Shown in pieces: positions 41,859 through 51,082 of a DNA stretch of 64,000 nucleotides. Position numbers and translations under genes: made by a program. The notes beneath the pieces were generated by a model. That model ran no database searches. It was not told the origin of the DNA and saw only the letters and a list, made by a program, of their open reading frames with translations. This DNA is from Prochlorococcus marinus str. MIT 9515 (GTDB lineage: Bacteria; Cyanobacteriota; Cyanobacteriia; PCC-6307; Cyanobiaceae). The DNA is taken from positions 1,612,001 to 1,676,000 of the forward strand of contig NC_008817.1 of the NCBI RefSeq assembly GCF_000015665.1, written 5' to 3'. How positions within the stretch are numbered: the first letter of the stretch is position 1; every line of letters begins with the position of its first letter.

Positions 41859-43823
41859 ATGAAAAAGCAACAATCCTCCAATGAATCTTTTGACGTTATT
41901 GTTATTGGAGGAGGACATGCAGGATGTGAAGCTGCCATTACGACAGCTAAATTAGGCTTTTCAACCGCATTATTCACAATAAATTTGGATAGAATTGCTT
42001 GGCAACCATGCAACCCCGCGGTAGGTGGACCAGCAAAAAGTCAATTAGTACATGAAGTTGATGCTTTAGGTGGAATCATTGGGAAACTAGCTGATGAGAC
42101 AGCAATACAGAAAAGAATATTAAATGCGAGCAGAGGGCCAGCAGTTTGGGCATTAAGGGCTCAAACCGATAAAAGAGAATATTCGAAACGAATGATAGAG
42201 ATACTACAAAACACTGATAATCTATCTTTGAAAGAAGCCATGATTACTGAATTATTGATAAAAGAGGTTGAAACTTTTACCAAAAACTCAAAGAATACGA
42301 CAAAGCAAATTAAAGGTGTGAAAACTTTTTTTGGAACCTGCTATTCTGCAAAATCAATAATAATAACTGCCGGAACTTTTTTGGAAGGGAGAATCTGGAT
42401 AGGTAATAAATCGATGTCTGCAGGGAGATCCGGAGAGCAAGCGGCTCAAGGTTTAACTGAAAGCTTACATAGTCTTGGAATAAAAACTGAGAGACTAAAA
42501 ACTGGAACTCCTGCAAGAGTGGATAAAAAAAGTATTTCTTTTGATGCATTAGATATTCAGCCAAGCACAGCTTCAGATAAATATTTTTCATTTGATCCCA
42601 AAATAAAAAACGACATGCCACAAATTTGTTGCCACATAACACGAACAACTCAAAAAACTCATGAATTAATTCGTAATAATTTGCATTTAACCCCAATTTA
42701 TGGAGGATTTATAGATAGTAAAGGACCTCGATATTGCCCTTCTATAGAAGACAAAATCGTAAAATTTGCAGATAAAAATTCACATCAAATTTTCTTAGAA
42801 CCTGAAGGGATAAATACGCCTGAAATTTACGTACAAGGATTCTCAACTGGGTTACCTGAAAATATTCAATTAGAACTTTTAAGAACATTACCAGGTTTAA
42901 ATAAATGTAAAATGCTTAGGCCTGCTTATGCTGTCGAGTATGAATACATTCCTGCAACTCAACTTAAGTTATCATTGGAAACTATTGAGATAGACAATTT
43001 ATTTAGTGCTGGACAAATCAATGGTACAACTGGCTATGAAGAGGCTGCTGCTCAAGGATTAGTAGCTGGAATAAATGCAACTAGAAAACTTAATATGAAA
43101 GATCCAATAATCTTTTCAAGAGAGAGCAGCTATATAGGCACTATGATCAATGACTTAATAACACGAGATCTAAAAGAACCATATAGAGTTCTCACAAGTA
43201 GAAGTGAATACAGACTTACTTTACGAGGAGACAATGCCGATAGGAGATTGACTCCTTTGGGTTTTGAAATAGGATTAATTGATGAACGAAGATGGTTTGC
43301 TCATAAAGAAAAAATGAAATTACTTAAAGAAGAAAATTCAAGATTAGAAAATACACGTTTAAAATGTACTGATGAAATCGCCAGAAACATAGAGTTAGAA
43401 AGTGGCTCAAAAATTAAAGGATCGACGACATTGAAAGATCTTTTAAAAAGACCAAATGTTCACTACTCTGATTTTATAAAATATGATTTGGCAAACAAAA
43501 GTCTACCAATAGCAGTTATGGAAGGAGTTGAAATAGACATTAAATACGAAGGTTACCTTAAAAGACAACAAAATAATATCGATCAGATAAATCGTCAAAG
43601 TCTCAAATCACTGCCAATCGAAATTAATTATGACCTAATAGATACTCTATCTTTAGAGGCCCGCGAAAACTTAAATAAAATAAAACCTACTAATTTTGGG
43701 GATGCCTCCAAAATACCCGGTGTCAGTAAAGCTGATTTAACAGCATTACTAGTTTGGCTTAAAATAAAAGAAATAAAAAAAGAAAAGACAAATAGTTTTG
43801 TTGAAAAAAAGTTATCATCTTAA
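41859..43823 (+). CDS. mnmG: tRNA uridine-5-carboxymethylaminomethyl modification enzyme MnmG
   Basis: MnmG (GidA) with MnmE installs the carboxymethylaminomethyl group on U34 of certain tRNAs. The FAD motif [10 protein letters not shown] (17-26), [22 protein letters not shown], the segment [33 protein letters not shown] and the C-terminal [17 protein letters not shown] are all typical. 654 aa is normal. It is 12 bases downstream of dnaB and 6 bases upstream of the chorismate-lyase-like gene. Confidence 0.98.
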
Positions 43824-45076: not shown

Positions 45077-45604
45077 TCAATCAAATAAAATTAAACAGTT
45101 TTTATTCCAAGATCCATTAAAAAACAAATTACAGCATTTTTTACAAGCGATATTCTTCATCCTTTTTCTATACATATATTTCTCCCCGCAATTTAAGCAT
45201 TTTCCTATATATTTTAATGCTTTTCTTTCAACTGGAAAATTATGTCTAATACTTATCTGAAAATTTTTTTCTTCTTTGTTGATTTGGTTCATTTTACTTA
45301 GAAAATTTGGCCCGTGTATCTCATTAATATTCAAAATCCTATCTACCCAGGCATGAATCATTTCATGGCAGAGCGTACTATAAATTTGATTAGACGATAA
45401 TTTACTTAAAATTGGCTTTGATAAAATAATCTCAGAATCAATAACTCCATTAAATTGTTTTCGCTTATAAAAACCTGCAGTTGTTTTTAATCTGTTATCA
45501 CTCCATCTAACCTTTACTAAAGGCTCTTTATTAATTGTTAGAGATTGATCAAAAAATTGCTTATTAAATTTATGGAATATTGGTAAAAGAGGAATTACAG
45601 ACAT
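45077..45604 (-). CDS. SprT-like zinc metalloprotein
   Basis: A 175-aa SprT-family protein. The zinc-metallopeptidase motif HEMIH (80-84) is intact with its glutamate, and H97 in HGPNF is the probable third ligand. The C-terminal zinc ribbon has C136/C139 and C154/C157. Eukaryotic Spartan/Wss1 relatives digest DNA-protein crosslinks; bacterial SprT function is not established. It is preceded by the divergent 139-aa gene and lies about 0.5 kb from the DNA ligase gene, which is suggestive but not evidence of a shared role. Confidence 0.87.
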   Translation of the reverse strand: MSVIPLLPIFHKFNKQFFDQSLTINKEPLVKVRWSDNRLKTTAGFYKRKQFNGVIDSEIILSKPILSKLSSNQIYSTLCHEMIHAWVDRILNINEIHGPNFLSKMNQINKEEKNFQISIRHNFPVERKALKYIGKCLNCGEKYMYRKRMKNIACKKCCNLFFNGSWNKNCLILFD

Positions 45605-45690: not shown

Positions 45691-46110
45691 ATGGATGCAT
45701 TACTAGTAAAAGATATTGGTGTCAAAGCTTTATTAATAGGTGGAGCAGTACTTGTTTCTTTTTGGACATTCAATGCTGTTAAGCTTGTTATAAGTGCAAG
45801 AGGAATTAATCCATTAGTTCGAAAATTCTTTGATCAAGTAGCAGCAGGAAGAATAGACGCTGCCTATGGACTTACTACAAAAACTTACAAAACACATGTA
45901 AAACGTCAAGACTTTTTAAAGTTTTTAGCTGGCTTAAATTTAAATAAATATAGAAATCTAAAGTCAGGAAGACCTAGAGTTCAAGAAGATCAGATCATAA
46001 TTACTTTAAATTTAAAATCTGAAGATAAAAAAGAAGAGCTTCCACTAGATTTTACTTTTTCAAAAACTGACAAAGATTGGAAGATAGACAGAATTGCCAA
46101 AGTAAATTAG
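45691..46110 (+). CDS. Membrane-anchored NTF2-like/DUF4864-type protein
   Basis: A 139-aa protein with one N-terminal membrane helix (about residues 12-34, ALLIGGAVLVSFWTF and following), then a small soluble domain. The domain has VRKFFDQVAAGRIDAAYGLTT, the helical DFLKFLAGLNLNKY and closing strands LPLDFTFSKTDKDWKIDRI. This layout resembles DUF4864 and NTF2-like periplasmic domains, judged by pattern only. It precedes the DNA ligase gene by 17 bases on the same strand, so the two may be co-transcribed. Confidence 0.75.
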   Translation: MDALLVKDIGVKALLIGGAVLVSFWTFNAVKLVISARGINPLVRKFFDQVAAGRIDAAYGLTTKTYKTHVKRQDFLKFLAGLNLNKYRNLKSGRPRVQEDQIIITLNLKSEDKKEELPLDFTFSKTDKDWKIDRIAKVN

Positions 46111-46127: not shown

Positions 46128-47459
46128 GTGAAACATCAAGAACTTCGGGAAGAAGAAATAATAAAAAAATTAGAATTAAACCCAAGCAGGTTAGATAAAG
46201 AACAAATCATTTTTGAAGCAATGAAAAAAGGGCTTAATGATTTTTTTGATGGAATACGTATGGCCTTAGATCCCTTAGTAACTTTTGGTGTAAAGCAAGT
46301 GCCAGAGAAAGTAGAAGAGACATCTAATAAAGGATGTAAATGGAGTGATTTTAAAGGATTAACAACTCAATTGATCCAAAGAGAACTGACTGGGTATGCC
46401 GCTAGAGATGCGATCAAATCAGTTATGAACTCTGCGACTAAAGAGCAATGGAACGGATTTTACAGACGAGTATTAATTAAAGACCTCCGCTGTGGTGTTT
46501 CTGAAAAAACAATTAACAAAGTTGCAAAAAAATTTCCACAGTATGCGATACCTATATTCTCGTGTCCCCTTGCTCATGACAGCGCAAACCATGAAAAGAA
46601 AATGATAGGCAAAAAACAAATTGAAATTAAACTAGACGGAGTCAGAGTATTGACAATTATTAGGAATAATAAAGTAGAAATGTTTTCGCGCAACGGCAAG
46701 CAGTTTCATAACTTTGGTCATATCATTGCAGAAATAGAAAAAGTATTAGAAAAACATCCTGATCCCCAAGATTTAGTATTAGACGGTGAAGTGATGAGTG
46801 CTAATTTCCAAGACCTGATGAAGCAAGTTCACAGAAAAGATGGTAAAGAATCAAAAGATGCAGTCTTACACTTATTTGATATATGTCCACTTAAAAATTT
46901 CAAGGAGGGTTTATGGAAAAAACCCCAAACCACAAGAAGTATGCTGGTAAAAGATTGGGTAACAAAAAATTCAACTTTTTTAAAACATGTCCAAACACTC
47001 GATTGGGAAGATGTGGATTTAGATACTACTAAGGGACAAATGAGATTTATAGAACTTAATAAAGAAGCAGTAGAGGGAGGGTATGAAGGCGTTATGATTA
47101 AAAATCCTAATGCTTGGTATGAATGCAAAAGAACACATAGTTGGTTAAAAGCAAAACCATTCATAGAAGTTACATTGAGAGTTGTAGCAATAGAAGAAGG
47201 AACAGGCCGAAACGAAGGTAGGCTTGGAGCCATCCTGGTTGAAGGTGAAGATGATAAATATAATTATCGACTTAATTGCGGGAGTGGATTTAGTGACTCT
47301 CAACGTGAAGAATATTGGAGTGAAAGAGATCAAATAATCGGCCAATTGGTAGAAATCAGAGCTGATGCAAGAACTAAATCTCAAGATGCTGAAACCTTTA
47401 GTCTTAGATTCCCAAGATTCAAATGCTTTAGAGGATTCGAACCAGGTCAAAAAATCTAA
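46128..47459 (+). CDS. ATP-dependent DNA ligase, T4-phage type
   Basis: This enzyme seals nicks using ATP. Nucleotidyltransferase motifs are in order: I with the AMP-accepting K168 in KLDGVR, III FSRNGK (186-191), LDGEV (218-222), IIIa LHLFDI (247-252), IV EGVMIK (320-325) and V WLKAKP (339-344). The OB-fold domain ends with SLRFPRFKCFRGF. The N-terminal part (LTGYAARDAI, RVLIKDLRCGVSEKTINK) resembles phage T4 gp30 more than bacterial LigB/LigC or LigD. The start is a GTG with AAAGG 11 bases upstream. Bacteria normally rely on NAD-dependent LigA, so this looks like a second, phage-derived ligase. The base composition matches the neighbours. Confidence 0.93.
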   Translation: MKHQELREEEIIKKLELNPSRLDKEQIIFEAMKKGLNDFFDGIRMALDPLVTFGVKQVPEKVEETSNKGCKWSDFKGLTTQLIQRELTGYAARDAIKSVMNSATKEQWNGFYRRVLIKDLRCGVSEKTINKVAKKFPQYAIPIFSCPLAHDSANHEKKMIGKKQIEIKLDGVRVLTIIRNNKVEMFSRNGKQFHNFGHIIAEIEKVLEKHPDPQDLVLDGEVMSANFQDLMKQVHRKDGKESKDAVLHLFDICPLKNFKEGLWKKPQTTRSMLVKDWVTKNSTFLKHVQTLDWEDVDLDTTKGQMRFIELNKEAVEGGYEGVMIKNPNAWYECKRTHSWLKAKPFIEVTLRVVAIEEGTGRNEGRLGAILVEGEDDKYNYRLNCGSGFSDSQREEYWSERDQIIGQLVEIRADARTKSQDAETFSLRFPRFKCFRGFEPGQKI

Positions 47460-47564: not shown

Positions 47565-47717
47565 ATGGATAACAAAAATCTTTTCAAATATATTAAAACT
47601 CCCTGCGGTCAATCAAAATACATCGAATTAGAAGCTAATAAAAGTGTGCTTGGGAAATTAAGACTTTATTGGTTTATCATCATTGCGTCTATAAGAGATT
47701 GGAATATTAAGGATTAA
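47565..47717 (+). CDS. Possible small protein of 50 aa
   Basis: A short frame starts MDNKNLFKYIKTPCGQSKYI and ends IIIASIRDWNIKD, with a hydrophobic patch around LYWFIIIASI. It lies in a 247-base gap between the ligase gene and the convergent VTT-domain gene, which it overlaps by 11 bases. The protein-like composition and mixed codons favour a real small gene, but no family is recognised. The rest of the gap (47460-47564) shows nothing else. Confidence 0.4.
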   Translation: MDNKNLFKYIKTPCGQSKYIELEANKSVLGKLRLYWFIIIASIRDWNIKD

Positions 47718-48318
47718 TTTCTTTTGACTCATTAATATATTCTCTAGCGTACTTTGCTGAAAAATATACAACCATCAATGTAGAAATCACACTTATAGTA
47801 GTAATCAGTATATTATTATTTGGTTGTAAATTTTTTAAATCCTGCAAACTTTTTGCCAAGCTACCTATAGAACAATAAAGAAATGTTCCTGGAATAATTC
47901 CAAGAAGACCTAAAGCAAAATCTCTAAATTTAATATTATTTAACCCATAAAAATAATTAAGAATACTAAAAGGAAAGAGTGGGGAAAGTCTTGCTAAAAG
48001 TATTAATTTAAGACCACCCTTCTGCACTACTTGTTCCATAAGACTTAATCTTGGATAACGATTAATAATTTTTTTCAGCTTTTTTGATAAAAAACTTTTT
48101 GAAATAAAGTATGCTATTGAAGCACCAATAACTGCCGCACAAAAAACTATGATTGAGCCGAGATAGGAACCATATAAAAAACCAGATAATAAAGATAACC
48201 AAGAGGCGGGAAGAATTAATAAAATAATTAAAATATAAAGAAAAATAAAAGCAAAAATACCAATATTTGTATTAAAAAAAAAGGCTAAATCATAAATATT
48301 TTCAAAAAAAGAAGACAT
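47707..48318 (-). CDS. VTT-domain (DedA/TVP38-like) membrane protein
   Basis: A 203-aa polytopic membrane protein of the VTT/SNARE-associated superfamily. Segments include AFIFLYILIILLILPASWLSLLSGFLYG, the glycine-rich GSIIVFCAAVIGASIAYF, and the family-typical LLARLSPLFPFSILNYFYGL followed by FALGLLGIIPGTFLYCSIGSLA. Relatives in bacteria and eukaryotes move lipids such as undecaprenyl phosphate or phospholipids across the membrane; the substrate here is unknown. It sits one base after valS on the same strand. Confidence 0.9.
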   Translation of the reverse strand: MSSFFENIYDLAFFFNTNIGIFAFIFLYILIILLILPASWLSLLSGFLYGSYLGSIIVFCAAVIGASIAYFISKSFLSKKLKKIINRYPRLSLMEQVVQKGGLKLILLARLSPLFPFSILNYFYGLNNIKFRDFALGLLGIIPGTFLYCSIGSLAKSLQDLKNLQPNNNILITTISVISTLMVVYFSAKYAREYINESKEINP

Positions 48319-48319
48319 A

Positions 48320-51082
48320 TTACTTTAATAAGTTAAGTTTCTTATTGATTCTTTCAGATTGCAAATTTCCCTCTTTTAACTTAACAAAACATTCATCAAC
48401 AATATCTCTTGGAGCTTTATCAATAAAGTTTTTGTTAGATATTCGCTTATTTAAAGATTCTATTTCAAGATTAACTTTTTTCAAATCATTAGTGAGCCTA
48501 TCCTTCAAAGCCTCTAGATTAACAAAATCATTAAAAGGCAAATAAACCTCTAGATCACCAATAATACCTGAAAAAGACTTGACAAAAGTATTTTTGTCGA
48601 TCTCATTAGATTTACGGAGAACCACTTCAGATGACTTAGTAAAAGTTTTAAGATCTACTAATAGAGTTTTAAGGAAATTAGTTAATTCAACATTATCTGA
48701 AATTAAATAAACAGGAACGAGTTGAGATGGCTTAAGTCCTAATTCCACCCTAAGATTTCTAATCAATCTAATTATTTCAAAGAGCTCTTGAAAAGATTTA
48801 TCTATATGATGATTTATGTGTTTTTTTTCTACAACAGGCCATTGCTGAAGAGATAATAAAGTCTGTTCGGGTTTTAGTTGTAATGCATGCCATAGTTCTT
48901 CAGTAATATGCGGCATAAATGGATGCATCATTACTAAAACATCAGAAAGTACCTTGATTAATATTTTTTCCGATATTTGTCTATTCTGTAATTCCTTATT
49001 ACTGAACTTTTGCTTTGAAAATTCAACATACCAATCACAAAAATCATTCCAAGTAAATTCGTATAATAATTTCGCAGCTTCACCTAATTTGTATTCAATT
49101 AAAAGATTAGATACTTTGGAATTCAATTGATTTAATTTTGATAAAATCCATTTATCAGATAATTGAAAATATTTTTCATCACTCTCGCTTAATAAATAAT
49201 TTTCAGAAAAAGTTTTATTTATCAAAACAAATTTAGTAGCATTCCAAAGTTTATTTGCAAAATTCCTTGATGCTTCAACTGTTGAAGAAGTATCATTTTT
49301 TCGATCAAAATCTAGCCTTATATCCTGTCCAGCTCCAGCGACTTCTCGAATTAAAGCAAACCTCAAAGCATCAGAACCGTATTTATCAATCAAAAGCAAA
49401 GGATCAATACCGTTACCTGCACTTTTACTCATTTTTTTATTATTTTCATCTCGAACTAAACCATGAATATAAACATCCTTGAAAGGTATTTTATTCGTAA
49501 AAGTTTTACCCATCATTGTCATTCTGGCTACCCAAAAGAAAATGATATCGAAACCGGTCACTAAAACGCTATTGGGATACCATTTTTTAAAATCTTCATC
49601 ATTTACGTTAGGCCAACCTAATGTAGAAAAAGGCCATAAACCACTTGAAAACCAGGTATCTAGTACATCTTTATCACGAATAAGTTGAAAATCAGCTCCA
49701 AATTCTTTTGTAGCTTTGTTTAAAGCTTCTTTCTCATTCCTTGCAACAATATATGGAGTATTTTGATCGATTGAATCCTCTGAATGTTTCAAGATATACC
49801 ATGCAGGAATTTGATGTCCCCACCATAATTGCCTACTAATGCACCAATCATTGATATTATCTAACCAATCTTTATAAACTTTCTCCCAGCGATTAGGAAT
49901 AAAAGTAGGCTTTTGAGAATCAAGTTCTTCAAGACAACTTGAAGAAATATTTTCCATTTTTAAAAACCACTGGGTTGACAATAATGGCTCAATTGGCACT
50001 TTCCCCCTTTCGGAAAAAGGTACAGTATTTTTATAGTCTTCTATTTTTGTTAACAAACCTAACAAATCTAATTCCTTTATTATTTGTTTTCTAGCTTCAT
50101 ATCTATCTAAATCCTGAAATTTTCCTGCATTAATATTAAGAGTTCCATCTTTATTCATTATATTTATTTGCTTTAGATTATTTCTTTTGCCCATAGCAAA
50201 ATCGTTAGGATCATGAGCTGGAGTTACCTTTACACAACCTGTACCAAAATCCTTATCAACTTCCATATCAGCAATAATAGGTATTTCCCTATCAACAAAA
50301 GGAACTTTTACTTTTTTTGCAATATACTTTTTATATCTTTCATCATTTGGGTTTACAGCTAAAGCAGTATCTCCCAATAAGGTTTCAGGTCTGGTTGTTG
50401 CGACCTCTAAGTATTCATCTAAAATTTGACCCGCATCAGAAATTAAGGGATATTTAAAATGCCATAAATGTCCATTAACCTCCTGCATTTCAACTTCAAG
50501 ATCACTTACTGCTGATTGAGATGCTGGGCACCAATTAACTAAATATTCACCTCTATAAATAAGTTTTTTATCGTGCAGAATATTAAACGCTTCAATAACT
50601 GCCTCATTTAATTTTTCGTCAAGAGTAAATCTTTCTCTCTCCCAGTCTACAGAATAGCCAATTCTCTTTAATTGAGATACTATTTTACCCCCACTCTGCT
50701 CTTTCCAAATCCAGGCTCTTTTTAAAAAATCTTCTCTTCCAATATCGCCACTATTTTTACCCTCATTTTTTAATTGTTTTTCAAGTATAGTTTGGACGGC
50801 TATTGATGCATGATCAGTTCCTGGTAAGCACAATACATTTTTACCAAGGAGTCTTTGGAAACGAATAATCACATCTATTAACGAACTATTGAAAGCATGT
50901 CCCATGTGTAAAGACCCTGTGACATTGGGAGGAGGAATAACTATACAAAAAGGTTCACCTTTATCTCTCGAATCGGGACTAAATGCTCTTAAACTATCCC
51001 ATTGTTTTTGCCACTTTTTTTCAACCTCTGAGGGTGAATAATTCTTTAATGTAAATTCATCATTCAACTTATTCATTTGCAA
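48320..51082 (-). CDS. valS: Valyl-tRNA synthetase
   Basis: ValS charges tRNA-Val and edits misactivated threonine. Class I motifs are present: PPPNVTGSLHMGHAF (the HIGH-type signature) near residue 50 and KKMSKSAGNGIDP (KMSKS) near residue 554. The editing domain has ATTRPETLLGDTA and the C-terminal coiled-coil arm begins around residue 855 (RLTNDLKKVNLEIESLNKRI). 920 aa is normal. A tRNA-Val gene lies only 0.4 kb away, with the HesB-like gene between them. Confidence 0.98.
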   Translation of the reverse strand: MQMNKLNDEFTLKNYSPSEVEKKWQKQWDSLRAFSPDSRDKGEPFCIVIPPPNVTGSLHMGHAFNSSLIDVIIRFQRLLGKNVLCLPGTDHASIAVQTILEKQLKNEGKNSGDIGREDFLKRAWIWKEQSGGKIVSQLKRIGYSVDWERERFTLDEKLNEAVIEAFNILHDKKLIYRGEYLVNWCPASQSAVSDLEVEMQEVNGHLWHFKYPLISDAGQILDEYLEVATTRPETLLGDTALAVNPNDERYKKYIAKKVKVPFVDREIPIIADMEVDKDFGTGCVKVTPAHDPNDFAMGKRNNLKQINIMNKDGTLNINAGKFQDLDRYEARKQIIKELDLLGLLTKIEDYKNTVPFSERGKVPIEPLLSTQWFLKMENISSSCLEELDSQKPTFIPNRWEKVYKDWLDNINDWCISRQLWWGHQIPAWYILKHSEDSIDQNTPYIVARNEKEALNKATKEFGADFQLIRDKDVLDTWFSSGLWPFSTLGWPNVNDEDFKKWYPNSVLVTGFDIIFFWVARMTMMGKTFTNKIPFKDVYIHGLVRDENNKKMSKSAGNGIDPLLLIDKYGSDALRFALIREVAGAGQDIRLDFDRKNDTSSTVEASRNFANKLWNATKFVLINKTFSENYLLSESDEKYFQLSDKWILSKLNQLNSKVSNLLIEYKLGEAAKLLYEFTWNDFCDWYVEFSKQKFSNKELQNRQISEKILIKVLSDVLVMMHPFMPHITEELWHALQLKPEQTLLSLQQWPVVEKKHINHHIDKSFQELFEIIRLIRNLRVELGLKPSQLVPVYLISDNVELTNFLKTLLVDLKTFTKSSEVVLRKSNEIDKNTFVKSFSGIIGDLEVYLPFNDFVNLEALKDRLTNDLKKVNLEIESLNKRISNKNFIDKAPRDIVDECFVKLKEGNLQSERINKKLNLLK

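Follow-up and report, generated by a model that had tools for sequence, protein, structure and literature searches.

The window, as we call the whole 64,000-nucleotide stretch of Prochlorococcus marinus str. MIT 9515 DNA that was analysed, contains a gene with a GTG start codon whose product, referred to here as T4lig, resembles the ATP-dependent DNA ligase of bacteriophage T4 (Table 1). It is preceded by a gene for a 139-aa membrane protein (m139) and followed by a conserved 50-aa ORF, and these two form the left and right borders of what we term the slot. The 50-aa ORF is 40-88% identical across the family, overlaps with its 3' end the DedA-like gene on the opposite strand, and is likely to be a real small protein. 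A SprT-like protein is encoded upstream of the slot, and the wider neighbourhood is made up of genes whose products we take to be MnmG/GidA, a DedA/TVP38-like membrane protein and valyl-tRNA synthetase (ValS).

Table 1. Features of the ligase locus (positions in the window) and the two adenylation-only proteins found elsewhere in the window's genome (positions in loci L003 and L004)
Feature	Position	Strand	Basis or remark
MnmG/GidA (presumed)	41859..43823	+	part of conserved neighbourhood
SprT-like protein, upstream of slot	45077..45604	-	PF10263
139-aa membrane protein (m139), left slot border	45691..46110	+	found in 52/53 slot loci
T4/Pmar-Lig-type ATP-dependent DNA ligase (T4lig), 443 aa, predicted	46128..47459	+	ORF, Pfam, phrog_114, PDB match, motifs
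Adenylation domain of T4lig, residues 157-343, catalytic K168	46596..47156	+	PF01068, motif
OB domain of T4lig, residues 357-435	47196..47432	+	PF14743
50-aa conserved ORF, right slot border	47565..47717	+	found in 53/53 slot loci
DedA/TVP38-like membrane protein (presumed)	47707..48318	-	conserved beside slot
Valyl-tRNA synthetase, valS (presumed)	48320..51082	-	conserved beside slot
Adenylation-only NAD-ligase-like protein	L003:1492-2247	-	PF01653, window's genome
Adenylation-only NAD-ligase-like protein	L004:1297-2046	+	PF01653, window's genome

The sequence-only reading had proposed a phage (T4) type ligase carrying a complete ATP-ligase motif set, and every expected nucleotidyltransferase motif could be located, including the lysine of KxDG: K168-LDGVR, SRNGK at 187, LDGE at 218, HLFD at 248, EGVMIK at 320 and WLKAK at 339. 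The N-terminal segments that it had described as LTG-x-AA and R-x-RDL-x-CG-like are present as ELTG-x-AA and RRVLIKDLRCG. Pfam identifies DNA_ligase_A_M (5.8e-23) and DNA_ligase_OB_2 (2.5e-11), with RNA_ligase also above its cut-off (4e-08). The phage ligase family phrog_114, which holds T4 gp30, SPO1 gp32.95 and KVP40 gp30, spans residues 9-436 of T4lig (5.4e-91), so that the N-terminal DNA-binding domain is included in the match. The nearest solved structures are 6RAU, 6RAS and 6RAR/6RCE (best E 2.7e-237), all of the Prochlorococcus enzyme Pmar-Lig (PMC6698739), to which T4lig is 78% identical over 441 aa. Together, phrog_114 and the full-length 6RAU match give an N-terminal DNA-binding domain, an adenylation domain and a compact OB domain, the short all-helical fold of the first being taken from the description of Pmar-Lig, whose DNA-binding domain is reported as T4-like (PMC6698739). 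None of the 13 NCBIfam models listed, including those for the cellular LigB, LigC, LigD and LigE ligases, is matched by T4lig above its cut-off (best 83.9 bits; the LigB-type model TIGR04120 gives 38 bits with a cut-off of 400), and judged by these scores an ordinary bacterial LigB or LigC identity did not materialise. T4lig is thus predicted to be an ATP-dependent nick-sealing DNA ligase of the T4/Pmar-Lig type. ATP-dependent nick sealing comparable to that of T4 ligase is reported for its homologue Pmar-Lig, which does not join blunt ends (PMC6698739).

The native base composition claimed for the gene is borne out in being near native, but T4lig is slightly GC-richer (GC 0.354, GC3 0.257) than valS (0.313 and 0.216) and the window (GC 0.317). 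T4lig is under purifying selection like valS: across 78 pairs from 13 hand-chosen loci of the 23 with T4lig in the slot, median dN/dS is 0.105 for T4lig, 0.100 for valS, 0.087 for mnmG, 0.145 for the DedA-like gene and 0.107 for the SprT-like gene.

If T4lig is a phage-type ligase, where is the NAD-dependent LigA, which is regarded as the replicative ligase in bacteria? Its presence was one of the checks proposed with the sequence-only reading, and profile searches with TIGR00575, PF01653 and PF03120 found no full-length LigA in the window's genome, a single contig of 1,704,176 bp. All nine LigA candidates there were scored, and the best TIGR00575 match reached 72.5 bits in the scan and 82.3 bits as a translated protein, with a cut-off of 444.45. 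PF01653 matches two separately encoded proteins, 251 and 249 aa long, which consist of the adenylation region only. Beyond the adenylation part, TIGR00575 matches just two stretches, both weakly: one of 25 bits in a 644-aa frame and one of 18.8 bits in a 228-aa frame (model positions ~496-575). We take both for helix-hairpin-helix (HhH) motifs of other proteins. As nothing else was found, a hidden LigA was rejected; so was a LigA remnant inside the slot, where no match was better than E 0.3.

The two adenylation-only proteins are paralogous and resemble the A subunit of the split T5-type phage ligases. They could, with a diverged partner, amount to a split NAD-dependent ligase in the fashion of T5-like phages, leaving T4lig an accessory role. 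They retain the adenylation core, share 26-30% identity with phage proteins annotated as 'NAD-dependent DNA ligase A subunit', and have counterparts of ~250 aa in frames widespread in the genus. However, the NAD-ligase OB domain PF03120 has no match in the window's genome, and the two weak stretches are all that TIGR00575 offers there as a partner, which makes such a persisting split enzyme scarcely credible.

The place where ligA would be expected is the slot itself. In three relatives outside the genus (G010, G078 and G056) and in one genome of the same genus (G389), ligA has m139 on one side and the DedA-like gene with valS on the other, in a gene order that matches the window. Every slot locus was selected because it contains a ligase hit; the presence of a ligase thus follows from the selection, and it is the common surroundings that are informative. 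Among the 53 loci, T4lig occupies 23 and LigA 30, eight of the latter from the genus itself (L042, L100-L105 and L108). Both borders are found in 52 of the 53, the exception being L108, which is cut by the contig start, and the 50-aa ORF stands 3' of ligA and T4lig alike. The borders are 1449-1477 bp apart with T4lig (n=23) and 2040-2275 bp apart with LigA in 26 of 29 loci, the other three measuring 2443, 3296 and 5397 bp; some more distant relatives have extra genes between LigA and its neighbours. The change at the slot is a gene-for-gene swap. T4lig shares locus, borders and orientation with the LigA of sister Prochlorococcus, whereas the architectures are non-homologous, LigA being an NAD-dependent enzyme of ~690 aa and T4lig an ATP-dependent one of 443 aa. 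T4lig is not an extra ligase but stands where ligA would be. As a separate observation, the contig ends ~1 kb upstream of T4lig in many draft Prochlorococcus loci (L215, L219 and L246, for example), and these ends near the SprT-like gene hint at a stretch that is hard to assemble.

In a scan of 400 family genomes, full-length T4lig is present in 65 of the 68 from the window's genus, as the claim that it is stably kept would have it, and in 0 of the 332 others; seven family genomes besides these 65, six of them outside the genus, have weak partial matches only (at most 38% identity). LigA, scored in two candidates per genome with drafts included, is above cut-off in 1 of the 68 genus genomes (G389), in none of the 65 with T4lig and in 292 of the 332 others, being below cut-off or absent in the remaining 40. 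T4lig is missing from three genus genomes: G389, which has LigA in the slot, and the drafts G396 and G399, which have neither ligase and also no valS match of ortholog strength. A tblastn search of 200 genus genomes with the G389 LigA, with up to five candidates scored per genome, detected a full copy in six and a partial copy in G499. For these seven, the lack of T4lig is read from what occupies the slot and from there being not even a weak T4lig match, while G389 was probed with T4lig itself. From these wider samples, eight genomes of the genus keep LigA at the slot. Nor is T4lig universal in cyanobacteria: a phylum sample of 386 genomes has it in 17, all of the window's genus, with no full-length relative in the 369 genomes of other genera, two of which have distant matches (27-29%).

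In a quick tree built from six proteins of the flanks (53 loci, with L082 left out; 2563 columns), the T4lig loci form one clade (support 99), its sister is made up of the genus's eight genomes with LigA (support 88), and one change separates the LigA and T4lig states. The position of this clade and its LigA sister places the swap within the genus, between the split from lineages that keep LigA and the divergence of the two main T4lig sub-branches. On our reading, the slot records a single event, in which a phage-type enzyme would have displaced the replicative ligase in situ.

What might have been the source of the incoming gene? Acquisition of the gene, which the sequence-only reading had suggested, is supported, and its source would lie outside the family, since no full-length copy is seen outside the genus. 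The closest relatives elsewhere belong to uncultivated viruses, at up to 76% identity: IMG/VR yields 434 matching stretches, with identities to T4lig of 67-76% for the best 80. Neither slot border, and none of nine host neighbourhood markers besides the ligase, occurs in any of these 80 viral loci. Phage isolates were rejected as close relatives, as none of 1081 records reaches at least 60% identity; T4 gp30 and the other isolate ligases differ from T4lig in being at most 38% identical to it, and no cyanophage is among the 40 isolate matches listed. This low identity is in line with the reported absence of gene 30 from isolated T4-like cyanomyoviruses (PMC2984593, in the part of the paper available).

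The direction of transfer was probably from phage to host. In a first ligase tree (19 of 23 host, 50 of 80 viral and 7 isolate rows), 31 viral rows group with the 19 host rows at 99 while the 19 other viral rows fall outside, and the host rows make up one nested clade; with midpoint rooting they likewise nest inside viral rows. The largest path is 1.62 among viral rows and 0.62 among host rows, and the viral rows are thus the more diverse. The reverse, in which the viruses took the ligase from Prochlorococcus and Prochlorococcus from an unseen cellular donor, draws on a second tree with more distant viral rows (52 of 130 viral, 6 host and 3 of 7 isolate rows), where, under a weak root set by a very distant isolate outgroup, the viral rows may come together on one side of the tree (support 48); both are quick trees with long-branch warnings. 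The missing gene 30 of isolated cyanomyoviruses would also suit that reversal. Against it stand the nesting and the greater viral diversity, as well as the lack of a full-length relative in the other family genomes and in the other genera of the phylum sample; moreover, the best 80 of 186 genome matches are all picocyanobacterial records. We regard the reversal as improbable.

Under transfer from phage to host, the donor pool in view appears to be viral, with a T4-type baseplate wedge protein and cyanophage-like neighbours, and with psbA in 0 of 25 viral records, which bears on the donor's host. T4 gp23 occurs in one of these 25, and its closest counterparts belong to jumbo phages that infect other hosts. 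Against these results, an NrdA encoded in one viral record shares 68-70% identity with ten Synechococcus phages among the matches listed, in a search limited to 5000 records; a ClpA-like protease occurs in two records, and the one searched is nearest to other phages at 43.5%. Two further viral proteins gave no match. A tRNA-ligase-like gene near the viral ligase (L110:3624-4466, + strand, for example), found in 16 of the 80 viral loci and so far in few isolates, shares 64-67% identity with the 'tRNA ligase' of P-SSM2/5/7 and points the same way as the NrdA.

That T4lig has also taken over the work of LigA is suggested by seven genomes that are 99-100% complete (G017, G220, G270, G282, G306, G341 and G375). 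All have T4lig, none has a LigA or a LigB-type ligase above cut-off, and tblastn gives no LigA match better than 1.3e-12, the four with listed places matching in the adenylation region only. T4lig is the only full-length ligase found in them, and for this reason it would appear to replace LigA in vivo. The G282 ligase, which is also in the slot, is 100% identical to the crystallised Pmar-Lig over 440 aa. Pmar-Lig is described as one of three ATP ligases that exist in addition to the replicative NAD-dependent enzyme (PMC6698739); the G282 result, in which it is the only full-length ligase found, disagrees with the available text of that paper for this genome. Two further points run counter to a replicative role. 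The 26-residue clamp-binding loop of T4 ligase is absent from Pmar-Lig (PMC6698739), and a bacterial clamp motif could not be clearly recognised in T4lig, the one candidate, 'QIIF' at residue 26, being weak. In addition, 'NAD-dependent DNA ligase' is reported as over-represented in two surface-ocean samples (PMC3686209); as far as the excerpt goes, this could refer to the adenylation-only proteins.

A LigB-type ATP ligase could instead have taken over replication when LigA was lost, with T4lig an accessory repair enzyme. The window's genome does encode one such ATP ligase (545 aa, L001). Of 151 genus genomes, 98 contain a ligase that passes the LigB-type cut-off; among the 51 with a completeness of 90% or more, a hand count gives 41. 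It is, however, patchy in the genus and sits at a separate locus, the slot of ligA being held by T4lig, and it is the LigB-type enzyme that was not found in the seven near-complete genomes. In addition, a study of a set of isolates lists DNA ligase as one of the genes that most genomes of one HLII subgroup lack (PMC9040837, as excerpted). A takeover by the LigB-type ligase is accordingly very unlikely. Upstream of it lies a 226-aa ORF (L001:182-862, + strand) that matches positions 99-313 of a 326-position model of a ligase-associated exonuclease at 237 bits, below the cut-off of 325; from the late start of this match and its score, it looks N-terminally truncated.

We therefore return to displacement. 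It is very probable that T4lig displaced LigA once, in situ, in the ancestor of the T4lig-bearing branch of Prochlorococcus, and that it most likely now serves as the replicative and repair ligase of the chromosome. The exchange would have been gene for gene, through recombination in the conserved flanks, with a marine phage of the T4 superfamily as the putative donor. T4lig would then most likely seal Okazaki fragments and repair nicks on the chromosome, presumably using ATP where LigA used NAD+. It is also likely that this branch replicates without LigA, with a phage Okazaki ligase, swapped in once by flank recombination, as its sole essential replicative ligase, and that Pmar-Lig is thus the only DNA ligase in its own genome.

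A search of the open-access literature, with subscription papers mostly outside its scope, found no report of LigA loss or of displacement at the slot in Prochlorococcus. Several papers, each consulted in part, touch on its ligases: a 'NAD-dependent DNA ligase' viral family is unique to some LL strains (PMC11357015), which fits the retention of LigA there; 'DNA ligase' genes are placed in LLI-specific segments (PMC6102989); an ATP-dependent ligase is described as lost early (PMC3940434); the LigA of P. marinus is given as NP_876232.1 (PMC3397958); and a P. marinus ATP ligase has been placed in a tree of viral ligases (PMC2806865). The displacement is reminiscent of Babela massiliensis, in which the NAD-dependent ligase is reported to have been replaced by an ATP-dependent one (PMC4378268), but that bacterium is a reduced amoeba parasite, and the available part of the report describes no in-situ swap.

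The bacterial ATP ligases characterised so far are described as auxiliary (PMC10799422, as excerpted). In a large branch of Prochlorococcus, an ocean photosynthesiser, the standard replicative ligase appears to be gone, and a virus-type ligase is probably doing the same job; a free-living and very abundant bacterial lineage thus appears to depend on a virus-type ATP ligase after giving up LigA. Because LigA-holding sister genomes bracket the event, it offers a clear-cut example of a viral-type gene taking the place of a core replication gene. The swap shortens the slot by ~0.6 kb, which is consistent with genome streamlining. The finding also reinterprets Pmar-Lig, and it predicts that the T4lig branch would tolerate inhibitors of LigA.
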